A stretch of DNA of 64,000 bases. Source: Thermocoleostomius sinensis A174 (lineage in GTDB: Bacteria; Cyanobacteriota; Cyanobacteriia; Elainellales; Elainellaceae). The stretch's first letter is position 1; every line of letters begins with the position of its first letter. The notes under the pieces are model-generated. The model saw only the letters and a list, made by a program, of their open reading frames with translations. It was not told the origin of the DNA and made no database searches. The stretch covers positions 1,279,026 to 1,343,025 of the forward strand of contig NZ_CP113797.1 in NCBI RefSeq assembly GCF_026802175.1, given 5' to 3'. This document shows positions 16,200 to 20,508 of the stretch, piece after piece. The translations under genes and the position numbers were made by a program.

Positions 16200-17057
16200 A
16201 TGACAACATTTCGCTTTAGCCTCATTACTCCCAGCTACAAACCAGACTTTGAGCGCTGTCAGTTGCTGTGTCGTAGTATCGAAAAGTTCGCTCAGACTGC
16301 CATTAATCACTACATTGTTGTCGATCGTCAAGACTTAGCGCTGTTTCGCCAATTGCAGGGAGCGCAAACTCACATTGTCACGAAAGAAGAAATTGTACCC
16401 TGGTGGATTAAACGATTACCTAGAGTAAATGCTTGGCTAAATTTTAGAGGATTGCCAATTCGTGGCTGGATTCTTCAGCAAATTATTAAACTGGCAATGG
16501 CTGAAACCATTACTGATGAAGTTTTAGTGTTTATTGATTCAGATGTTTTCTTTATTCGACCGTTTAATCTCGAAGATATCTTTATTCAAGACGATAAGGT
16601 TCGATTATTTCGAATCGCTCAAAGAAGTCCGTTTCCAGAGTATGAGAAAACCGCCATTGAACTCCTCGGAATACCTGCCATTCCCTCCAATAAATATATT
16701 GGGCAAATCGTCTCTTGGAAGCGCGATAATGTTCTAAAACTGCATCGGCACATTGAAGCGGTGTCAGGAAAACATTGGATAGCAGCCGTTGCCAGCCACT
16801 GGCATCTATCAGAGTATGTGCTTTATGGCGCATTTGTAGACTATATTTTGCAGGAGCAAGCAGGACATTATTATGACGAAGGGGCATACTGTCTTGGATA
16901 TTGGAAAGATGTCCCCTTGTCTAAGCCACAGCTAGAAGAATTTTGTCAGCGCATTCAGCCAGAACATATCGCAGTCATGGTCTCGGCAAAAGCCGGAATG
17001 ACCCCTGACGATTATGCAACTTCGATCGAAGAAGCAGCCTATGTGACAAACAGCTAG
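16200..17057 (+). CDS. DUF6492-family glycosyltransferase-like protein
   Basis: The 285-residue product starts FSLITPSYKPDFERCQLLC, the nucleotide-binding beginning of a GT-A fold, and has VLVFIDSDVFFIRPF, where DSD is the DxD-type metal-binding motif. Later parts include ISWKRDN-like and SHWHLSEYVLYGAF segments typical of the family. Such proteins are thought to transfer sugars in surface-polysaccharide synthesis, but the substrate is unknown. No signal peptide or membrane segment. An inverted repeat at 17133-17154 after the gene could end its transcript, though its T-run suits the opposite strand. Confidence 0.75.
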   Translation: MTTFRFSLITPSYKPDFERCQLLCRSIEKFAQTAINHYIVVDRQDLALFRQLQGAQTHIVTKEEIVPWWIKRLPRVNAWLNFRGLPIRGWILQQIIKLAMAETITDEVLVFIDSDVFFIRPFNLEDIFIQDDKVRLFRIAQRSPFPEYEKTAIELLGIPAIPSNKYIGQIVSWKRDNVLKLHRHIEAVSGKHWIAAVASHWHLSEYVLYGAFVDYILQEQAGHYYDEGAYCLGYWKDVPLSKPQLEEFCQRIQPEHIAVMVSAKAGMTPDDYATSIEEAAYVTNS

Positions 17058-17166: not shown

Positions 17167-17243
<77 letters not shown>

Positions 17244-17429: not shown

Positions 17430-17573
17430 TTCCGTTGCTAGCAAGGTAAGGAGACGGGCGTTCCGTGAACTGTTCGATATCAACAACACTTTAAAAATTG
17501 ATGAAGTTCCGTGAAACCGCTGTGATTTTCCGTAAAGTCGGAACTCACGCTGATTACATTAGTAGAACTCCGT
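17430..17573 (+). promoter_or_regulatory. Cluster of TTCCGT motifs upstream of the first 47-aa peptide gene
   Basis: TTCCGT occurs at 17430, 17461, 17507 and 17528, with CTCCGT at 17568. The copies at 17461 and 17507 share TTCCGTGAA. This density is high for a hexamer and the cluster lies 70-210 bp before the peptide gene, so an operator or iteron-like binding region is possible. The upstream region of the second module has only a related TTCCTTGTGAAG near 19040. The stretch 17287-17641 holds no other gene I can support. Confidence 0.35.
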
Positions 17574-17641
17574 ATACTTCGATCGGCCGATAGGTTCATT
17601 ATGTATCGGACAGTTCGCTTAGACGCCGAGGAATAAAGGGA

Positions 17642-17785
17642 ATGTTTGCACTCAACAACATTCAGTTGCTTTTTCTTGCCGCCATTCAACAACGCTTCTT
17701 GAAAAGCGTTCTCTTTGTGAAGCGGGAAGTCTTCCTTGTTGCCGTTGCTGCCGCGCGTGTTCCGGGTGGATGTTGTCCACCTTGA
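17642..17785 (+). CDS. 47-aa peptide, copy 1 (novel, ends PGGCCPP)
   Basis: The frame encodes MFALNNIQLLFLAAIQQR and continues through KREVFLVAVAAARVPGG to CCPP and a TGA. GAGGAA at 17628-17633 lies 8 bases before the ATG. A paralogue of exactly the same length is at 19186-19329: 29 of 47 residues are identical, and many of the codons for identical residues differ at the third base (for example across AVAA, PGG and the last P), so protein sequence is being conserved. The peptide is hydrophobic and basic in its first 38 residues; the invariant tail RVPGG-x-CPP looks like a processing or modification signal. A hexapeptide acyltransferase gene follows 458 bp later, as at the second copy. I know no described family; RiPP precursor, signal peptide or small membrane protein are all open. 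Confidence 0.72.
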   Translation: MFALNNIQLLFLAAIQQRFLKSVLFVKREVFLVAVAAARVPGGCCPP

Positions 17786-18243
17786 AAGCTTCTCTGTGAG
17801 TTTCAGAACTAGTCGTTGTCCATTGTTGGAGACTAATAGTGGAAACTAGCTCCACTGACAGCTTTGTTTCTTTCGATAGATAGAACAAGTCGAACCGTTT
17901 CTTGAGTTCGCAGCCAGCGCTTAACGGTGTTAGATATTCCTCATGTGTTTATCTACTGTCATAGTTGCTCTTGATTTGGGCAGTGGAAAGCGGCTAGTTG
18001 CACTCGTGCTTAAGCAGGCGGACATCCCAATCTTGTTCTGACGAATTTTGATTCCGTAGGTATCACATAGTTGCCGATCGCTTCCTAGCATTTGCATAAA
18101 CGCAGCATTCATTCCGTTTAAATCTCTGAATCAGCAGATCACCTGAATTGAGTAAGTTCTCAGTTCTATTAGCGTTGCGGAGGTGGGACGGTAACTCCGC
18201 ACTTCTAATGAATGGTATTTGAGCTTGTAGCAAGGTTTCAAGG
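17786..18243 (+). other. 458-bp leader between peptide gene and acyltransferase, copy 1
   Basis: No convincing frame is seen. GCAGCATTCATTC at 18102-18114 also occurs at 19652-19664, in the matching gap of the second module and at a similar distance (130-140 and about 125 bp) before the acyltransferase start, so a conserved leader or regulatory RNA element is possible. Confidence 0.45.
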
Positions 18244-18957
18244 ATGAAAATAACAGACACGACTTTAGAAAAAAGCATTGAGCATGTTCATCAACATGAA
18301 CAAATTCCTGAGCAATCCTCAGACTCAATGAATCGGTGGCGCTTGCTGACTGAGCGCTTTTTGATCAGTTTAATTGGAGGAATTCCCCGCCCCCTGGGAG
18401 CACACCTCAGACGAGGCTTCTATCCGTTGATTTTTGCGCAAATGGGGCGATCGGTGCACATTCAAGCAGGCTGCGAGTTTATCGGTTCACAATCAATTGA
18501 AATCGGCGATGAAGTTCGGCTGCTGCGGGATGTGCGCATTAACTTGAAAGCCAATCGAAGCCGACTACGCCTTGGCAACGAAGTGTGTCTCGATCGAGGA
18601 GTTGATATCAATGTAGCCGGGGACGATTGCCTGATCGACATTGGCGACCATAGTTACCTAGGACCCTATGTGTGTATGGCGGGACCTGGTTCCATCATCA
18701 TCGGCAAAAACTGCATGATTGCTTCTCAAACGGGGATCTATGCCAACAACCACCGCTCCTATGGACTCAGCCGAGAAGGCATCACCATCGAAGACAACTG
18801 CTGGTTGGGGTCTGGGGTGAAGGTATTGGACGGAGTGACGATCGGTCGCAACAGTGTGGTTGGAGCGGGTTCAGTGGTGACGAAAGACATTCCGCCCTAC
18901 TCGGTGGCGGTGGGTGTGCCAGCCAAGGTGATTAAGCAGACAACCGGCGTGGTGTAG
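18244..18957 (+). CDS. Hexapeptide-repeat (left-handed beta-helix) acyltransferase, copy 1
   Basis: The 237-residue product has a basic N-terminal segment ([36 protein letters not shown]) and then the imperfect hexapeptide repeats of LbetaH acetyltransferases: [76 protein letters not shown]. Family members such as WcaF/NodL-like enzymes O-acetylate sugars using acetyl-CoA; the catalytic histidine is probably in ANNHRSYG. Bases 18562-18963 are identical to 20107-20508 in the second copy, whereas the first 106 residues differ clearly. It follows a 47-aa peptide gene. Confidence 0.88.
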
Positions 18958-18963
18958 TACCTT
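18562..18963 (+). repeat. 402-bp identical tract, copy 1 (gene conversion)
   Basis: Identical to 20107-20508 (offset 1545) from CGACTACGCC through the stop codon to AGTACCTT, with sharp loss of identity at both ends. This points to recent conversion or recombination between the two acyltransferase genes. Confidence 0.9.
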
Positions 18964-19185
18964 ACCTGCTATCCAGGCAATCAGTATTCCCAAACGGGAC
19001 GAGGAATACAACTGAAGAGATTCAATTCTTTGTAAAGTTCCTTGTGAAGTTTCGATAACCTGACTGAATACCCCAAGCTCAATCTGTTTAGTTTAAAAGA
19101 ACTCAGTTTCCCTAAGCGGCTTCATGCTGGCAACAGAGTATCAGCACTTGGGTTAAAACAGACTGATCTGCTGAGGAAATTGCTT

Positions 19186-19329
19186 ATGTTTAAACCCAAC
19201 ACGACTCGGTTATTGATCCTCGCAGCGATTTATCAACGTCTTTTGAAAGGCGTTTCATGGCTGTATCGTGAAGTTGTAATCCGCGCTGTGGCAGCGGTAC
19301 GTGTTCCAGGCGGTTTTTGTCCACCGTGA
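19186..19329 (+). CDS. 47-aa peptide, copy 2 (novel, ends PGGFCPP)
   Basis: Encodes MFKPNTTRLLILAAIYQR, a middle part with LYREVVIRAVAAVRVPGG, and ends FCPP before TGA. GAGGAA at 19173-19178 lies 7 bases before the ATG, matching the arrangement of copy 1. Length, the LAAIxQRxLK block, REV, AVAA and RVPGGxCPP are shared. Outside the coding region the flanks have diverged strongly, while the codons show mainly synonymous change, which supports translation. The second acyltransferase gene starts 450 bp downstream. Confidence 0.72.
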   Translation: MFKPNTTRLLILAAIYQRLLKGVSWLYREVVIRAVAAVRVPGGFCPP

Positions 19330-19779
19330 AGTCATCGGAGTCAACGATAGCTAGATGACTTTTTGCCCTAACCGAAATTTAGTGAGTTAGTTCAGAGCAT
19401 TATTTCATCGGCTCGGAAAGAAATTTTCTAGTTCCTAGTTCAATCTTCAACGATCGTCTTGGTTGTAATCCGATATCAATCTGCGTTCATTAGTTTTACT
19501 GGATGAACCTAAAAGTGCTTCTTAGCGGCACAATAAGCAGAACACTAGTGGAACACTTTATTGAGAAATTTTAATAACGTGTTGTCCGCTCCCAAGCTTG
19601 TATAAAAATCGTACTGAAGATACATTTACAAAGTATCCTCAGCGGTGGCTGAGTGCAGCATTCATTCACCTAGAGATGAGTTTGTCACTTAACTAATTTT
19701 CTCTAATTCACGCTCATTGCATTGCAATTTGCATAGTGTGTTCTCGAAATATGTTCTTTGAATGGCTAGGTTGATAACC
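19330..19779 (+). other. 450-bp leader between peptide gene and acyltransferase, copy 2
   Basis: AT-rich and without a supported gene. It shares GCAGCATTCATTC (19652-19664) with the leader of copy 1. Confidence 0.45.
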
Positions 19780-20502
19780 ATGAAAATTACTAATACGTCA
19801 AATACTGTTTTAAAACAGCGCATTGAATCAATTCCGCATCATCGTATAAAACTCACCCAATCAAAAGATTCTCATGAACGCTGGCGTTGGTTGCTTGAGC
19901 GCACATTGATCACATTCGTTGGCGAAATCACCCGACCGACTGGCGTTCTTTTGAGGCGATGGTTATACCCACTGATTTTTGCGCGCATGGGTCGATCGGT
20001 TTACATTCAAGAGCGCAGTGAAATGATTGGCTGCAATTCTATTGAAATTGGTAGCAATGTTCAAATTTTGAAAGATGTAAAACTGAATGCCAAGTATCTC
20101 CGGGTGCGACTACGCCTTGGCAACGAAGTGTGTCTCGATCGAGGAGTTGATATCAATGTAGCCGGGGACGATTGCCTGATCGACATTGGCGACCATAGTT
20201 ACCTAGGACCCTATGTGTGTATGGCGGGACCTGGTTCCATCATCATCGGCAAAAACTGCATGATTGCTTCTCAAACGGGGATCTATGCCAACAACCACCG
20301 CTCCTATGGACTCAGCCGAGAAGGCATCACCATCGAAGACAACTGCTGGTTGGGGTCTGGGGTGAAGGTATTGGACGGAGTGACGATCGGTCGCAACAGT
20401 GTGGTTGGAGCGGGTTCAGTGGTGACGAAAGACATTCCGCCCTACTCGGTGGCGGTGGGTGTGCCAGCCAAGGTGATTAAGCAGACAACCGGCGTGGTGT
20501 AG
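19780..20502 (+). CDS. Hexapeptide-repeat acyltransferase, copy 2
   Basis: I start at the second ATG ([10 protein letters not shown]), which aligns with [10 protein letters not shown] of copy 1; an in-frame ATG 18 bases upstream is possible. The product has the same layout as copy 1: basic N-terminal part with [20 protein letters not shown] and [15 protein letters not shown], then hexapeptide repeats. From residue 110 to the end the protein is identical to copy 1, including the putative catalytic histidine region, so the two enzymes probably have the same reaction and differ only in the N-terminal part, which may set partner or substrate. The role in surface glycan or peptide acylation is inferred. 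Confidence 0.88.
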
Positions 20503-20508
20503 TACCTT
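20107..20508 (+). repeat. 402-bp identical tract, copy 2 (gene conversion)
   Basis: Identical partner of 18562-18963. Confidence 0.9.

Follow-up and report, generated by a model that had tools for sequence, protein, structure and literature searches.

The 64,000-nucleotide (nt) stretch of the cyanobacterium Thermocoleostomius sinensis A174 analyzed here (hereafter the window; contig NZ_CP113797.1, positions 1,279,026 to 1,343,025) carries two open reading frames (ORFs) of 47 codons, ORF1 and ORF2, each preceded by GAGGAA 7 to 8 nt before its ATG and each located ~450 bp ahead of a gene for a hexapeptide acyltransferase (Table 1). The arrangement had been picked out in an earlier reading of the DNA made without database searches (the sequence-only reading), whose coordinates agree with ours, as does its count of 29 identical residues among the 47 of each peptide. 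The similarity lies beyond chance (E = 1.7e-11 in a search of the host's own genome), and a codon-by-codon comparison yields 13 identical codons, 16 synonymous differences, and 18 residue changes: the pair does not, as had been stated, differ mainly at synonymous positions, and it is per site that the synonymous rate is ~2.5 times higher (pS, 0.64; pN, 0.25). The same reading had further proposed that the peptides form an undescribed family, kept by purifying selection and linked to the genes that follow, and on this point homologs, substitution ratios, and gene order all concur. Two of the refuting conditions set for it were examined, and neither speaks against it: family members exist in further cyanobacteria, and the ratio of nonsynonymous to synonymous substitution rates (dN/dS) is far below 1. 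ORF1 and ORF2 are real members of an apparently undescribed 47-residue peptide family, whose distribution, sequence constraints, and genomic setting are described below.

A Patchily Distributed Family of Cyanobacterial Peptides

The host genome (5.81 Mb, single contig) encodes four copies, the two of the window included. A further one, 1348769-, precedes an acyltransferase gene, recognized as such through 72% DNA identity over 637 nt to the Pfam-confirmed Hexapep gene of locus L020 and not by a Pfam scan of its own, and the remaining copy, 3177368+, lies ahead of a GT8 gene. A four-row profile matched 14 of 60 genomes at E ≤ 0.1, the host among them and some only weakly, and a 36-row profile at E ≤ 1e-4 matched 10 of the 36 genomes of the host's order (host included, one to four copies each) and 6 of the 42 genomes of a second order, so that the family's distribution is patchy. 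Four of the six second-order loci repeat known peptides and two, L071 and L072, are new. A whole-phylum search, with up to 18 candidates per genome scored, detected the family in at least 3 of 386 genomes; it was not found in a plasmid collection. A scan for the pattern AV[RK]IPGGLT, which is blind to variants such as the window copies, covered 84,980 species genomes and returned 41 stretches and 34 confirmed loci, some from the same genome and all cyanobacterial, with Phormidium, Elainella, Nodosilinea, Myxacorys, Phormidesmis, Leptolyngbya, Scytonema, Fischerella, Westiellopsis, and Iningainema among the genera represented.

Removal of near-identical peptides left 38 representatives for the counts that follow, with pieces shorter than 40 residues and L016, which has the full tail and no start codon giving 47 codons, left out beforehand. 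The distance to the stop is exactly 47 codons in 34 representatives, 45 in L040 and L062, and 50 in L022. Pfam gave no match for the two window peptides, and NCBIfam none for the 18 members submitted to it. The family peptides are moderately hydrophobic with a net charge of 0 to +8, and they show no transmembrane (TM)-like segment by hydropathy, no signal-peptide predictor having been run: the best 19-residue scores span 0.64 to 1.97 and stay below 1.6 in 40 of 43 peptides. Sorting of the PEP-CTERM/exosortase type was considered and rejected, as no TM segment follows the motif. AlphaFold2 returned no confident fold (mean predicted local distance difference test score, 63.7; predicted template modeling score, 0.29), with a low-confidence N-terminal helix at residues 4 to 19.

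The C-Terminal Tail Is Constrained in Residues and in Codons

The family alignment yields a consensus tail A-V-R/K-I/V-P-G-G-L-T-P-P-stop, in which the window copies carry FC or CC in place of LT. Pro stands at the stop in 37 of 38 representatives, L031 being the exception, and Pro-Pro-stop closes 36 of them, so that the family shares with P-stop or Pro-Pro arrest peptides a conserved C-terminal motif whose last residue before the stop is Pro. Position 45 is Thr in other members, Ala in L072, and Cys solely in the two window copies. Across 35 non-independent pairs within groups dN/dS amounts to 0.28 for the whole ORF, 0.34 for codons 1 to 36, and 0.025 for codons 37 to 47. Within the tail, codons 37, 38, 41, and 47 use synonyms freely, the last employing all four Pro codons evenly, with residues fixed or nearly so, which identifies the peptide itself as an object of selection.

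Codons 45 and 46 are constrained in their letters as well. Thr45 is encoded by ACT in 35 of 36 cases, against a background of 0.35 overall and, for Thr codons before Pro in the same loci, of 0.26; at codon 46, 35 of 37 members use CCA or CCC (expected, 0.50). The corresponding P values of ~1e-19 and 7e-9 assume an independence that the sequences violate, and thinning to at most 55% identity keeps the bias at 17 of 18 for either codon. The third base of codon 45 is T in 37 of 38 representatives, the window copies (TGT CCA) retaining both this T and CCA despite their Cys residue. The newly found L071 (ACT CCC) and L072 (GCT CCC, with Ala45) fit the pattern too. Such constraint suggests that the ORF's end functions cotranslationally or as mRNA, which a secreted peptide would not need. 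The stop codons are mixed (TAA, 16; TGA, 16; TAG, 5), and therefore no single release factor is implied. At the opposite end of the ORF, codon 4 mostly ends in A among family members (CCA, CTA, or TCA; e.g., L029:6010-6012) and in C in both window copies.

The Peptide ORFs Precede Genes of a Common Theme

Gene neighborhoods were compared in 46 loci, with identical copies removed, close relatives kept, and the first following ORF of 120 or more residues counted. This ORF is co-directional in 45 of 46, and the family thereby shows the short ORF directly upstream on the same strand that is looked for in arrest peptides; the gap has a median of 513 nt (quartiles, 399 and 549) and measures 190 to 700 nt in 40 of 45. 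Among other neighbors in loci longer than 8 kb, 122 of 210 (58%) are co-directional, the median gap being 110 nt. First downstream genes were scanned against Pfam in 32 of the 46 loci, the other 14 (L014, L022, L023, L034, L036, L037, L039, L041, L043, L045, L051, L052, L056, and L058) being mostly close relatives of scanned ones. The 32 genes comprise 13 Hexapep, five Acyl_transf_3, four GT2, two GT4-type, one GT8, two TylF methyltransferase, two SulP, one GDP-mannose-dehydratase type, and two others, such that 30 belong to eight Pfam-defined kinds that fit the making or decoration of polysaccharides. None is secA, secDF, or yidC, the genes expected behind peptides that monitor Sec or YidC. 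The 10 hand-picked upstream genes include none of those polysaccharide-type families.

It is also important to note that a single genome, G017, places four copies ahead of four unrelated genes (Hexapep, TylF methyltransferase, SulP, and GT2): the ORF tracks a position and a theme and not one partner enzyme, and the acyltransferase, which the sequence-only reading had taken for a specific partner, is one of several unrelated kinds of downstream gene. Among 10 second downstream genes, some of them picked for their SulP look, four are SulP (L038:7774-9252, L048:8035-9573, L054:7494-8933, and L057:8753-10237), and SulP is the first gene in L025 and L046; the recurrence of these sulfate permeases hints at sulfated polysaccharides. 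The downstream gene at L042:6514-7443 encodes 310 residues without a Pfam match, and a similar gene of 311 residues lies behind L043.

Sequences Flanking the ORFs

Upstream of the ORFs, the 8-mer TTTGTAAA is present in 10 of 38 regions (no 8-mer exceeded seven in 20 shuffles), and half-sites [GT]T[AG]A[AG] spaced 12 nt apart, a spacing picked after trying nine, occur in 12 of 38 (100 shuffles: mean 1.8, maximum 5). The pairs lie 77 to 212 nt before the ATG, 11 of the 12 within 135 to 212 nt; the region upstream of ORF2 has one and that of ORF1 none. This recurrence suggests a shared activator site, which would make the ORF part of the transcript's 5′ leader.

Among the matches listed, homology between loci often ends within some tens of bases of either end of the ORF and resumes only at the gene (e.g., L053/L056 and L049/L055); Scytonema-like copies share part of the interval (~300 nt in L045/L047, and likewise L042/L044, which have different downstream genes). 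A second conserved ORF in the interval was considered and dismissed, the similarity being confined to close relatives and spread over several frames at once. A tail hairpin, GGNGG/CCNCC, is predicted locally in many single sequences but lacks covariation; moreover, in the 12 of 38 representatives whose Gly42 codon ends in C or A, codon 46 never supplies the complementary base, which counts against it. In the window region and 10 further loci Rfam reports only tRNA at gathering score, and a sub-threshold snoRNA match in the window region was taken as chance.

The Duplicated Locus of the Window

The sequence-only reading had described a duplicated module, and a duplication is indeed present; it does not, however, extend evenly over its parts. 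The 3′ parts of the acyltransferase genes are identical over 402 bases (18562-18963 vs. 20107-20508), yet their 5′ parts and the peptides have diverged, and overall the enzymes share 188 of 240 aligned residues. Identical enzyme 3′ ends next to diverged peptide ORFs suggest that the enzyme recently underwent gene conversion. The gap between ORF2 and the second enzyme measures 450 nt from the MKIT start and 432 nt from the first in-frame ATG. Upstream of ORF1 lie a gene with a DUF6492 match (16200-17057; 4.2e-33) and a weak Stealth CR2 match and, just before the ORF, a tRNA gene on the minus strand (17170-17243; Rfam tRNA).

Table 1. Features of the peptide-acyltransferase locus (window coordinates)
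Feature	Coordinates	Strand	Basis
ORF1, 47-residue putative leader peptide; ATG start, TGA stop; tail RVPGGCCPP-stop	17642..17785	+	ORF translation, family alignment
ORF2, 47-residue putative leader peptide; ATG start, TGA stop; tail RVPGGFCPP-stop	19186..19329	+	ORF translation, family alignment
Shine-Dalgarno GAGGAA of ORF1, 8 nt from ATG	17628..17633	+	sequence
Shine-Dalgarno GAGGAA of ORF2, 7 nt from ATG	19173..19178	+	sequence
Conserved C-terminal tail of ORF1, codons 39-47; nucleotide core TGTCCACC at 17774-17781	17756..17782	+	codon alignment
Conserved C-terminal tail of ORF2, codons 39-47; nucleotide core TGTCCACC at 19318-19325	19300..19326	+	codon alignment
Hexapeptide acyltransferase 1, 237 residues	18244..18957	+	Pfam Hexapep 8.4e-17
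Hexapeptide acyltransferase 2; MKIT start at 19780 matches copy 1, first in-frame ATG at 19762	19780..20502	+	Pfam Hexapep 9.2e-18 for 19762-20499
458-nt interval, ORF1 to acyltransferase 1	17786..18243	+	no same-strand terminator or known RNA family
450-nt interval, ORF2 to acyltransferase 2	19330..19779	+	sequence
TGAAG/GTGAA/GTAAA-like tandem repeats ahead of ORF1; weak candidate for an activator or promoter site	17501..17541	+	by eye
GTAAAGTTCCTTGTGAAG repeat upstream of ORF2, half-site at -154; suggestive only	19029..19053	+	half-site scan

A Candidate Cis-Acting Leader Peptide

In light of the conserved tail, its codon constraint, and the fixed position ahead of polysaccharide-type genes, we consider it probable that each 47-codon ORF is a cis-acting regulatory leader peptide, the Pro-Pro-stop end of which would stall the ribosome and control the next gene. 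The ORF would open a transcript in which the principal gene serves the synthesis or modification of extracellular polysaccharide, and the ribosome would pause or arrest during synthesis or release of the Pro-Pro end (codons 46-47-stop), with residues A37 to G43 in the exit tunnel setting the stall and the fixed codons 45 and 46, in or just behind the P/E sites, aiding it. Given that synonyms vary at codon 47 but hardly at codons 45 and 46, the pattern is matched equally well by arrest at the stop codon and by arrest one step earlier, when codon 46 occupies the P site and Pro47 the A site. A cue such as a metabolite, the level of a factor (e.g., EF-P or a release factor), or the state of the membrane may alter the stall; the ribosome, whether still stalled or already released, could then change downstream expression through mRNA stability, RNA polymerase pausing, or folding of the leader, not by way of Rho and probably not through an intrinsic terminator. 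The peptide would need no role of its own after release. More tentatively, the ORF may represent a portable cassette before unrelated surface-polysaccharide genes, in which the 11-residue chain and the letters of codons 45 and 46 jointly bring about arrest and a polysaccharide regulon is controlled free of both Rho and terminators; we regard this wider scheme as possible.

Several observations weigh against such a leader peptide. Its weak point is the action of a stalled ribosome over 0.5 kb without Rho or terminators: intrinsic terminators occur in just 2 of 34 intervals (L028 and L032; shuffles: mean 0.65, maximum 3), and a looser scan found none on the plus strand of either window interval. 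A search for Rho (PF07497) found none in the one host genome, the control being positive in 9 of 14, and cyanobacteria are described as lacking Rho (PMC13289151). With terminators rare and Rho not found, the usual ways for a leader ribosome to act on the next gene are missing. No conserved RNA fold was found over the ORF, and pairing of the ACTCC[AC]CC core in cis with upstream, downstream, or start regions, which was also considered, proved no better than in shuffles. Outside close relatives the interval keeps its length and mostly not its sequence, among the matches listed, and to our knowledge the near-constant length of 47 residues is not required by known arrest peptides. Individual members deviate as well: L031 (6001-6222) has no stop after Pro-Pro and continues in frame for 27 codons, L017 ends in Phe-Pro in place of Pro-Pro, the next gene is on the opposite strand in L022 and more than 900 nt away in L014 and L062, and the genes behind L011 (DRL oxidoreductase) and L042 (no Pfam match) are off-theme. 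Furthermore, Hexapep, TylF, and SulP genes also work outside polysaccharide making, and the DUF6492 gene upstream of ORF1, which falls outside the 10-gene upstream sample, may itself be a sugar or sugar-transfer gene.

Comparison with Known Arrest and Signaling Peptides

Arrest and leader peptides are known kinds of regulator; the literature searched revealed neither this family nor its polysaccharide setting or codon signature. No paper in the collection searched contains the tail strings IPGGLTPP, RIPGGL, or VRIPGG, and, among the matches listed, no title or opening of an abstract on leader peptides with cyanobacterial polysaccharides, on cyanobacterial small ORFs, or on sulfated polysaccharide with small ORFs deals with the family. 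TnaC-type leaders are short peptides that end in Pro-stop and stall at termination; the present family differs from them in sequence and length, in that no Rho was found in the host, and in having no amino-acid metabolism gene downstream. PatS/PatX-type peptides likewise come from small ORFs of cyanobacteria and carry a conserved motif at the C terminus, but this motif differs from the tail described here, and they are not known to serve as leaders of other genes.

Closer parallels come from two reports. For P-stop arrest peptides encoded upstream of secA/secDF, arrest was shown in vitro to occur while the stop codon occupies the A site (PMC10987492), and these peptides resemble the present family in being short upstream ORF (uORF) products with a conserved Pro-stop C terminus and a patchy distribution. 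Those uORFs, however, lie before secA/secDF and were selected for carrying an N-terminal localization signal (PMC10987492), whereas this family precedes polysaccharide-type genes, has no TM-like segment by hydropathy, counts only 47 residues, and ends in GGLTPP-stop, its stalling remaining putative. The CruR uORF, which has a RAPP end, governs a copper operon, not a sec one, in a Rho-dependent manner (PMC9426467); like the ORFs studied here it heads an operon of nonsecretion genes and carries a conserved C-terminal Pro-Pro motif. CruR is nevertheless a DUF2946 protein with RAPP at residues 139 to 142, a CXXC metal site, and Rho dependence (PMC9426467), unlike the window peptides, which match no Pfam family and whose host genome yielded no Rho.

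Alternative Explanations

The main rival of the leader-peptide model is a trans-acting peptide, i.e., a small signal or regulator coexpressed with polysaccharide genes and bound through its AVRIPGGLTPP end by a receptor or transcription factor, much as short C-terminal-motif peptides pattern heterocysts. The extreme conservation of the 11-residue C terminus beside a freely changing N-terminal part would suit such a molecule, as would the common theme of the neighboring genes and the presence of several copies in some genomes. A signal, however, needs no codon-level constraint at codons 45 and 46, the copies stay 5′, co-directional, and ~0.5 kb ahead, and hydropathy, used here in place of a signal-peptide predictor, shows no TM-like segment, a result that also speaks against the secreted signal of the sequence-only reading; on balance we deem a trans-acting peptide unlikely. 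Selection could instead act on a nucleic-acid element, the ACUCC[AC]CC core pairing with a trans RNA or binding a protein and the ORF mainly carrying it to a ribosome-exposed place. The near-invariant third-base T of codon 45, kept even in the Thr-to-Ala variant (GCT), speaks for this, and the letters of the core are similar to the conserved loop of the cyanobacterial small RNA Yfr1. Codons 37, 38, 41, and 47 nonetheless vary synonymously while their residues stay fixed, which shows that the peptide itself is selected, and no pairing partner was found in cis, trans RNAs not having been searched; overall, we hold an element of this kind to be quite improbable.

Still harder to sustain is a stable small protein acting with polysaccharide enzymes, for instance as an amphipathic helix localizing them at the membrane surface: the N-terminal helix, net charge, and moderate hydrophobicity are compatible with it, but the structure model is of low confidence, the N-terminal part is the variable one, and the partners are unrelated and include a permease and a methyltransferase, and we judge it very unlikely. 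As for a ribosomally synthesized and post-translationally modified peptide (RiPP)-like precursor acted on by the acyltransferase, the leader-Gly-Gly-core shape noted in the sequence-only reading and the Cys of the two window copies first brought it to mind, yet only four residues follow the Gly-Gly, position 45 is Thr or once Ala in the other listed members, the downstream gene is often no acyltransferase, and no RiPP enzymes occur among the scanned genes neighboring the window ORFs and the other loci; such a precursor is extremely improbable.

Implications

The 47-residue peptides constitute a gene family that length-limited annotation would be expected to miss. Should the proposed leader-peptide mechanism hold, a single peptide tail would mark a hidden regulon of genes for sheath, slime, and sulfated or acylated polysaccharides in filamentous cyanobacteria, and point mutations in the Pro-Pro or start codons would offer a simple handle on it. 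The family would moreover extend leader-peptide systems beyond the control of amino-acid, antibiotic, metal, and secretion genes, in a phylum without Rho, and, under the wider cassette scheme, would represent a route of leader control, independent of both Rho and terminators, that is not yet described.

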